64,000 nucleotides of DNA from Glycomyces algeriensis (lineage in GTDB: Bacteria; Actinomycetota; Actinomycetes; Mycobacteriales; Micromonosporaceae), in NCBI RefSeq assembly GCF_027622855.1, contig NZ_JAPZVR010000002.1:390681-454680 (forward strand), given 5' to 3'. Below, one piece after another: positions 40,015-41,483 of the stretch. The notes beneath the pieces were generated by a model. The model did not search any database and had not been told where the DNA came from. It saw nothing but the letters and a program-made list of their open reading frames with translations. Position numbers and translations under genes: made by a program. Position 1 is the first letter of the stretch. Every line of letters starts with the position of its first letter.

Positions 40015-40638
40015 GTGCGCGAGACGACTATTGATGACTGGCTGACCGACCTCGCTTCGGAGCTTCCGGCGCCCGGCGGCGGCGCGGCGGCGGGGATGAG
40101 CGCGGCCATGGCCGCCGCCCTGGTGTCCATGGTGTGCAACCTGACGATCGGCAAGCCGAAGTTCGCCGAACACGAGGCGGTGATGCGGGAGGCCCTGGCC
40201 GACGCGGAGCGGTTGCGCGGAGCAGCGCTGCAGCTCGCGGAGGACGACGCGGAGGCGTTCTCGGGCGTCGTCGCGGCCTACAAGCTGCCGAAGTCCTCTG
40301 ATGAGGAGAAGGCGGCGCGGACCGCGGCGATCCAGGCGGGCCTGGTCGAGGCCGCGGCGGTGCCGCTCGCGGTCGCGAAGGTGTCGGCCGAGGTGATCAA
40401 GCTGTCGGGGCGGGTCCTGGAGGGGTCCAACCCGAACGTCCTCTCGGACGTGGCCGTGGCGGCTTCGGCGGCGAAGTCGGCGCTGGAGTCGGCGGCACTG
40501 AACGTCGACATCAACGTGGTGGCGATCAAGGACCCCGCCGAGCGGGAGCGGCTCGCGAGCACGCTCAACGAGGCGCTCCAGGCGAAGGTGCAGGCTGAGG
40601 CGATCATGCAGATCGTGGCGAAGAGGATTCGGGCATGA
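40015..40638 (+). CDS. cyclodeaminase/cyclohydrolase-fold protein (FchA type)
   Basis: A 207-residue all-helical protein of the FTCD C-terminal domain family, which includes formimino-THF cyclodeaminase and the stand-alone methenyl-THF cyclohydrolase FchA. Family features are [43 protein letters not shown] near the N-terminus and [25 protein letters not shown]. There is no fused formiminotransferase and no hut gene nearby. Its stop overlaps the folD start (ATGA at 40635-40638), and that FolD lacks its cyclohydrolase lysine, so methenyl-THF cyclohydrolase is the most economical role. This is inference. Confidence 0.85.
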
Positions 40639-41483
40639 GTGACATCGACGGGCGCGCGGTCGCGTCGGACATCCGCGCGGCGGTCGCCGCCGACGCGGCG
40701 CGGCTGCGCGAAGAGGGCATCGTGCCGACCCTGGCGGTCGTGGTGCCGACGGACGACGAGGGCACGGCCTGGTACGTGCGCTCGATCCGCAAGGCCGCGG
40801 AGAAGGAGGGCATCGACTGCAGGGTCGAGCACCTCAAGGACCCCGGCAAGGACGAGATCACCGCGAAGCTCCAGGAGCTGTCCGCGGATCCGTCCGTCCA
40901 CGGGATCATCTGCCAGACGCCGCTGCCGGAGGGCGTGACCCTCTCGGAGGTCGGGTGGCACATCAGCCCGTACAAGGACGTTGACGGCGCGAACTCGGAG
41001 AGCCTGGGCCGCCTGGCCGCCGGGTTGCGGACCTTCGCGCCGGCGACGGCCGCGGCGGTGCTGGAGCTGCTCAAGCGCGAGGACCTGGTCCTGGAGGGCG
41101 CCAAGGCGGTCGTCGTCGGACGCTCCACTGTGGTGGGCAAGCCGGCGGCGCTGCTGCTGCTGAACGAGTCGGCGACGGTGACCGTGTGCCACTCGCGCAC
41201 GAAGGACCTCGCCGCCGTCTGCCGCGAGGCGGACATCCTCGTCGCGGCCGTGGGCCGCGCCGGGATGATCAACGCCGACTTCGTGAAGCCGGGCGCCACC
41301 GTCATCGACGTGGGCACCAACCCGACCGAGGACGGCGGACTGGTCGGCGACGTCGACTACGACGCGGTCGCCCCGGTCGCCGCCAGGCTCACGCCGGTCC
41401 CCCGCGGCGTCGGCCCGGTGACGACCGCACTCCTGCTGCGCCACACGGTGGTGGCGGCGGAGCTGACGAAGACCCACGGCTAG
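40635..41483 (+). CDS. folD: FolD-family methylene-THF dehydrogenase with altered cyclohydrolase site
   Basis: A 282-residue protein of the FolD family. Substrate-site motifs are kept: CQTPLPEGV (Gln94), [14 protein letters not shown], and the NADP loop [36 protein letters not shown] closes the fold. The conserved YVxxK, whose lysine (Lys54 in E. coli, Lys56 in human) is needed for cyclohydrolase activity, reads YVRSI: Ile51 replaces it. Dehydrogenase activity may remain. The gene is coupled by ATGA to an FchA-type gene that could supply the missing step. A terminator follows. Confidence 0.9.

Follow-up and report, generated by a model that had tools for sequence, protein, structure and literature searches.

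A folD gene without the cyclohydrolase lysine, overlapping an fchA-type gene in Glycomyces algeriensis, and the probable separation of two one-carbon activities

Layout of the fchA-folD locus

The window analyzed here is a 64,000-nucleotide stretch of the Glycomyces algeriensis genome (RefSeq assembly GCF_027622855.1, contig NZ_JAPZVR010000002.1), which measures 5.59 Mb with 100% completeness and 1.82% contamination. Within it, two overlapping genes encode a protein of the FchA type and a FolD protein lacking the lysine that the family carries in its active site. Both open reading frames lie as a preliminary description of this DNA had placed them, with the fchA-type gene directly upstream of folD and an ATGA shared by the two. 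The features of the locus are:

40015..40638, plus strand: fchA-type gene, predicted 5,10-methenyl-THF cyclohydrolase; GTG start, 207 amino acids, FTCD_C domain at 203 bits (Pfam)
40635..41483, plus strand: folD without the cyclohydrolase lysine (Ile51), predicted monofunctional methylene-THF dehydrogenase; ATG start, 282 amino acids, PF00763 and PF02882
40635..40638, plus strand: ATGA overlap of fchA stop and folD start, read from the sequence
40785..40787, plus strand: folD codon 51, ATC (Ile) in place of the family's Lys codon; read from the sequence, ATC in 22/22 genus members
41500..41528, plus strand: hairpin followed by T residues, directly 3' of folD, read from the sequence

The ATGA overlap would allow translational coupling of fchA and folD. 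The hairpin, in a segment (41490-41545) with a fold energy of -30.7 kcal/mol (z -4.3), is a probable end of a two-gene transcript; a simple terminator scan listed no terminator after folD, probably because it demands five T residues in eight bases. The upstream neighbor of fchA is a class II DAHP synthase gene in the opposite orientation. The longest listed frame of this gene extends into fchA, and since its family match starts only at residue 129-130, the true start is probably further in. With a hairpin after folD and an opposed gene upstream, fchA-folD looks like a complete two-gene transcript. A sigma-70-type promoter scan of positions 39700-41700 found no site 5' of fchA, its single match lying downstream of folD, and Rfam at gathering thresholds gave no known RNA element anywhere in the window. 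Downstream of folD, a promoter-like site (41586-41613) precedes a 210-amino-acid open reading frame (41668-42300) for which neither Pfam nor NCBIfam gave a family match at the applied thresholds.

The missing lysine and the partner protein

The folD product contains both domains of the family above their Pfam cut-offs (THF_DHG_CYH, 97 bits; THF_DHG_CYH_C, 201 bits). Residue 51 is isoleucine where the family has the lysine of the YxxxK motif, and the protein thus lacks the lysine that marks a bifunctional FolD. The preliminary description had reported this replacement in YVxxK together with retention of the other site motifs, and direct reading of the residues bears out both points: Y47, Q94, D117 (the aspartate of KDVDG) and the GRS and GP motifs are all present. 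Codon 51 is ATC in all 22 genomes of the window's genus that were searched, and it differs from a lysine codon (AAA or AAG) by two bases. Both genes are under purifying selection, with median dN/dS values in the genus of 0.24 for FolD and 0.18 for FchA (231 pairs each). The constancy of the codon, its distance from lysine and the low dN/dS make chance or a sequencing error at this position unlikely.

The window's YVxx[I/L] motif is shared by 36 of the FolDs that were read; 32 of them have Ile at position 51 and 4 have Leu, and Tyr47, Gln94, Asp117, Arg163 and Ser164 are invariant in all 36. The AlphaFold model of the window FolD has a mean pLDDT of 94.9 and matches bifunctional FolD structures over its full length (TM 0.94 to 3p2o). 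From its conserved site residues and a confident model matching the FolD fold, the protein appears to be an intact enzyme altered at one specific position. NCBIfam models for bifunctional FolD stayed below cut-off in all 25 listed of the 32 matched, the best reaching 295 of 421 bits. Loss of a catalytic residue resembles decay, and FolD might be taken for a relic on its way to being lost, with 10-formyl-THF supplied from another source. However, the low median dN/dS, the open frame in 22/22 genus members and the otherwise conserved active site speak against a relic, as do the lack of Fhs in the same 22 members and of a second FolD, and we regard this explanation as extremely unlikely.

Effects of losing this lysine are known from E. 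coli FolD, in which the K54N mutant retains about 19% of the dehydrogenase activity and has no detectable cyclohydrolase activity (PMC5688156). In human MTHFD2, modelling assigns the lysine chiefly to substrate binding and doubts its role as a base, leaving a catalytic role possible (PMC9173628).

The fchA product is a stand-alone FTCD_C domain. The only NCBIfam model it matched, the FchA model NF045657, scored 207.9 bits against an equivalog cut-off of 275; formal FchA membership thus fails by NCBIfam, and the functional reading stands on context. By both sequence and fold, the best PDB match is the Methylobacterium extorquens cyclohydrolase 7vg4 (TM 0.94), with 52.5% identity over the fragment compared, versus 33 and 34% to two FTCD cyclodeaminase structures. 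FchA very probably takes over the second step of FolD, the hydrolysis of methenyl-THF.

Alternatively, FolD could still be bifunctional by means of other residues, and FchA could be a formimino-THF cyclodeaminase of histidine or purine breakdown. Such a FolD would fit with the retained Q94, and the FTCD_C domain shares the cyclodeaminase fold (1o5h, TM 0.84; 1tt9, TM 0.92); moreover, at 20 loci of the phylum an FTCD_C gene adjoins a formiminotransferase gene. However, the formiminotransferase family (PF07837) had no match in any of 61 genomes, the window genome included (among 14 control genomes, the profile matched one, T. maritima), so that there is no known source of formimino-THF, and a histidine-type cyclodeaminase role for FchA was rejected on this ground. 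In addition, the formiminotransferase-linked FTCD_C proteins group away from the window's relatives in the tree, where one starred clade holds 13 of their 16 rows, and the best FolD keeps its lysine in 10/10 fetched genomes with such a gene (L219-L228). Together with the undetectable cyclohydrolase activity of the E. coli mutant, these results make a bifunctional FolD beside a cyclodeaminase very unlikely. Two genomes with a formiminotransferase context, G102 and G307, have a Val-type FolD beside a separate FTCD_C copy (L179, L140; L189, L193). In other families of the phylum (the L183-L205 group, for example L184, 2429-3987), FTCD_C overlaps a separate formiminotransferase gene or lies next to it, with fhs nearby in several cases.

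Co-occurrence of FchA with lysine loss, and ancestry of the pair

The sample of relatives comprised 61 genomes with 74 FolD places, 70 of which were read at the lysine position (G058, two of G045, and G049 being left out); 33 of these FolDs lack the lysine and 37 have it. We found FchA directly upstream of 32 of the 33 lysine-less FolDs, and in the one exception (G056) it is on another contig. Counted by genome, FchA is above cut-off in 33/33 genomes with a lysine-less FolD versus 2/24 in which only a lysine-type FolD was seen (G047 and G051), and in 0/4 genomes with no residue reading. In 28 of the 33 genomes with a lysine-less FolD, no other FolD matched, and five relatives carry both types. 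In G047, FTCD_C lies on a different contig from FolD. In G051, FchA is nested in the window's FchA clade and lies 1.9 kb from the lysine-type FolD, the two being separated by a pabBC-like gene (a chorismate-binding/aminotransferase IV fusion); in context, this genome is the single clear departure from the rule that links FchA to lysine loss. At this locus (L164, 6850-12626), the lysine-type folD, the pabBC-like fusion, the window-clade FchA and an aldehyde dehydrogenase stand in a row; no other FchA was observed close to a FolD that has the lysine.

A scan of 296 genomes of the phylum gave a FolD match in 283 and FTCD_C above cut-off in 104. Together with the relatives, 184 distinct FolDs were residue-read (from the phylum scan 30 returned loci, 20 from genomes with non-adjacent FTCD_C, 20 more, and 30 + 40 FchA-adjacent ones), adjacency meaning within 450 bases on the same strand. 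None of the 80 FchA-adjacent FolDs has the lysine (34 carry Ile, 25 Val, 18 Ala and 3 Leu), whereas 102 of the 104 others do; the remaining two have Leu, and both of their genomes (G056, G292) have FchA elsewhere. Co-occurrence of the lysine change with the adjacent gene among homologs, which the preliminary description had proposed as a check, is thus what the sample holds; because the sample was partly chosen via FchA matches and its members share ancestry, these figures are counts and not independent trials. FTCD_C places below about 165 bits were mostly left out, as were the lower-scoring FolD matches of genomes with several. The counts also exclude nine duplicate loci, L001, the larger re-fetched L156-L178, and loci with no FolD in the stretch (e.g., L119, L137 and the formiminotransferase-linked loci).

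In a forward test, titled genome records were scanned with an Ala-type FolD alignment, yielding 80 loci, mostly from Bacillota and Coriobacteriia. FchA lay within 450 bases (strand not required) at 49 of these, none of which had Lys, and at two more it lay 476 and 2027 bases away, both with Ala. Where the stretch held no FchA, 14 FolDs were lysine-less and 13 had Lys; two further loci were unreadable. As the rule predicts, FchA was found elsewhere in the genome for 13/14 of these lysine-less FolDs versus 2/13 of the lysine-type ones (Fisher p 6.9e-5; named Bacillota and others), one lysine-less genome having no FchA match. At 35 of the 49 named loci where FchA is adjacent, the fetched stretch also contained fhs. 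Lysine-less FolDs occurred in the named members Sporomusa ovata, Blautia hansenii and Romboutsia.

A tree of 75 representative FolDs, built with the lysine column and its neighboring columns omitted, needs two changes of lysine state. One lysine-less clade unites the Ile/Leu and Ala types (28 rows, support 99/95) and the other the Val and allied types (6 rows, 100/100). Bootstrap trees gave two changes throughout the 5-95% range, and the starred branches alone force only one; an independent-pairs test of FchA against lysine loss has only 2 to 3 pairs on this tree. In the FchA tree, the partners of Ile/Leu FolDs fall in one clade (15 rows, 98/95) that includes two FchAs not adjacent to such a FolD, 13/14 partners of Ala FolDs fall in another (99/96), and nine Val partners form their own (100/98). 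Since the FchA tree repeats the grouping of the FolD tree, the partners seem to have been inherited together. In the Ala- and Val-type clades (e.g., L208, L115), the active-site glutamine has also been replaced, by F or L, whereas in the window clade the lysine alone is gone and the glutamine is kept in 36/36 members, which suggests that the site was taken apart either stepwise or along two routes. Among named records, the best match of an Ala-type FolD from the same phylum (L200) is from Coriobacteriia.

A lysine-type folD lies downstream of purN-purH in all five relatives read (L151-L155), with mdh next in four. In contrast, the stretches read around mdh contain no folD in five genomes with only a lysine-less FolD (G000, G001, G025, G033 and G034; purNH loci were read for G000, G025 and G034, and G001 and G033 were read at mdh only). 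In G025 and G034, the interval of about 2.5 kb that separates purNH from mdh holds no folD, and a separate purNH stretch of G000 is likewise devoid of folD. The preliminary description had suggested that FchA replaced a lost FolD activity. With the window FolD in a tree group that is nearly all FchA-partnered, and the canonical gene missing from the purNH-mdh neighborhood, we correct this order of events: probably, fchA and folD arrived as a ready-made pair and took over, with loss of the canonical lysine-type folD linked to purNH and mdh.

The opposite course, in which a canonical FolD decayed from K to I in place once FchA had arrived to rescue it, would agree with the loss of lysine alone in the window clade, its glutamine staying as in a recent loss, and with the alternation of Ile and Leu at residue 51. 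However, the window FolD shares only 41-43% identity with the five canonical FolDs linked to purNH in its relatives, it joins the Ala-type FchA-linked FolDs at 99/95, and five relatives hold both FolD types in one genome. We therefore consider decay in place unlikely and favor the takeover by a ready-made pair. The Pfam neighbors of the pair in two of the five genomes with both types (L156, L157) revealed no theme of a specialized pathway.

A probable split route to 10-formyl-THF

The window genome has one PF02882 match above cut-off, and two others at 21 bits fall below the 27-bit cut-off. A second, intact FolD, which the preliminary description had named as evidence that would count against it, was thus searched for with PF02882 and none was found above cut-off; with a single FolD in the genome, its other suggestion, a FolD paralog rewired for another folate step, does not fit. 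Profile searches for Fhs (PF01268) found it in none of 22 genus members and in none of the 33 relatives with a lysine-less FolD, and it was above cut-off in 4/61 genomes. Fhs as an alternative source of 10-formyl-THF was accordingly rejected for the window genome. The genome also encodes PurH and three Formyl_trans_N proteins above cut-off, of which the one adjoining PurH is PurN-like and the other two appear Fmt-like and PurU-like. Given PurH and these formyltransferases, the genome should need 10-formyl-THF, and on the best reading FolD and FchA are its sole recognized route to this compound.

We propose that the fchA-folD operon splits the two activities of a bifunctional FolD, that it is the only recognized route to 10-formyl-THF in this genome, and that it displaced the canonical folD as a unit; we put the probability of this reading at close to 0.9. 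FolD would oxidize 5,10-methylene-THF to 5,10-methenyl-THF, presumably with NADP+, and lacking the active-site lysine it would not hydrolyze this product efficiently. FchA would then hydrolyze methenyl-THF to the 10-formyl-THF used for purine synthesis and for initiator formyl-Met. Since Fhs is absent, no other enzymatic source of 10-formyl-THF would be recognized in this genome, and the lineage of the pair seems to travel as a unit that displaced the lysine-bearing gene. The split system of the preliminary description is upheld by the co-occurrence, by the lack of another FolD, of Fhs and of formiminotransferase in the searches, and by the E. coli lysine mutant; its order of loss followed by rescue is not. 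The glutamine partner kept throughout the window clade makes some residual cyclohydrolase activity of FolD conceivable. Methenyl-THF also hydrolyzes spontaneously (PMC5688156), and FchA may thus assist the step without being indispensable.

Several known systems resemble the pair in part. Bifunctional FolD of E. coli and M. tuberculosis and the human MTHFD1 domain have in common with the window FolD the two domains, the fold, the Tyr/Gln/Asp residues and the nucleotide-site motifs, but they carry the YxxxK lysine where the window FolD has Ile. PDB 1edz, which we take to be yeast MTD1, probably lacks the lysine, and we know of no FchA partner for this enzyme. It belongs to the same superfamily as the window FolD and is dehydrogenase-only, but its sequence is distant (E 3e-5); a paper on the yeast monofunctional dehydrogenase calls it NAD-dependent in its title. 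A split Fhs-FchA-FolD system has reportedly been described in C. perfringens by Aluri and others (2016), in which FchA and FolD are reported to restore growth of an E. coli folD deletion strain without formate and glycine only when supplied together. Separate FchA and FolD proteins alongside Fhs are known from clostridia and acetogens, and Clostridium autoethanogenum, Acetobacterium woodii and Sporomusa are among the members described (PMC9618320, PMC3584212 and PMC10472528). As in the window, the FchA and FolD genes adjoin there, and FolD is lysine-less in named members such as those given above. However, the clostridial and acetogen split has Fhs, as seen at most of the named loci above, whereas none of the 22 searched members of the window's genus does, and the Ala-clade FolDs of the phylum sample have lost the glutamine that the window clade keeps. 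The M. extorquens Fch, the closest solved relative of the window FchA, is partnered not by FolD but by MtdA, and the formate-THF ligase FtfL is present (PMC9618320). The dehydrogenase of Peptostreptococcus productus, now Blautia producta, is called monofunctional (PMC6443876); Blautia hansenii FolD has Ala at the lysine position, with FchA 59 bases away. In Sporomusa ovata (L311, 3501-4304), FolD likewise has Ala at this position, FchA is 40 bases away, and Fhs is in the stretch.

The FchA/FolD split is thus known already from clostridia and acetogens. As far as our searches show, what is new is its Fhs-free version, present as the only FolD across 22 searched genomes of one genus; that the window clade keeps its glutamine, and that FchA partnership goes with lysine loss almost without exception, are likewise new. 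Among titles and abstract beginnings, with subscription papers mostly outside the scope, nothing was found on a lysine-less FolD with FchA in actinomycetes.

One conceivable, though improbable, reason for the separation lies in natural inhibitors. In E. coli FolD, carolacton hydrogen-bonds to this lysine, and the dehydrogenase activity remaining in the lysine mutant is completely insensitive to it (PMC5688156). If the split were an escape from inhibitors that grip the lysine, which we think very unlikely, bacteria living near producers would gain by moving hydrolysis to FchA and dropping the lysine, and Fhs-free genomes would for this reason keep the pair as their only FolD.

Together, these results suggest that presence or absence of the YxxxK lysine is a simple sequence test for a bifunctional FolD, and they show FchA presence and lysine loss coinciding in samples from the window's phylum and from Bacillota. 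Annotation names track the fold and not the residue: the 25 listed NCBIfam models are all called "bifunctional" with no cut-off reached, and the legend of a Sporomusa gene-cluster figure labels folD bifunctional (PMC12003927), although the S. ovata FolD is without the lysine. The finding also points to genomes in which the split pair is the only recognized source of 10-formyl-THF, and since such genomes have no Fhs, this enzyme would not confound genetic work on the reason for the separation.
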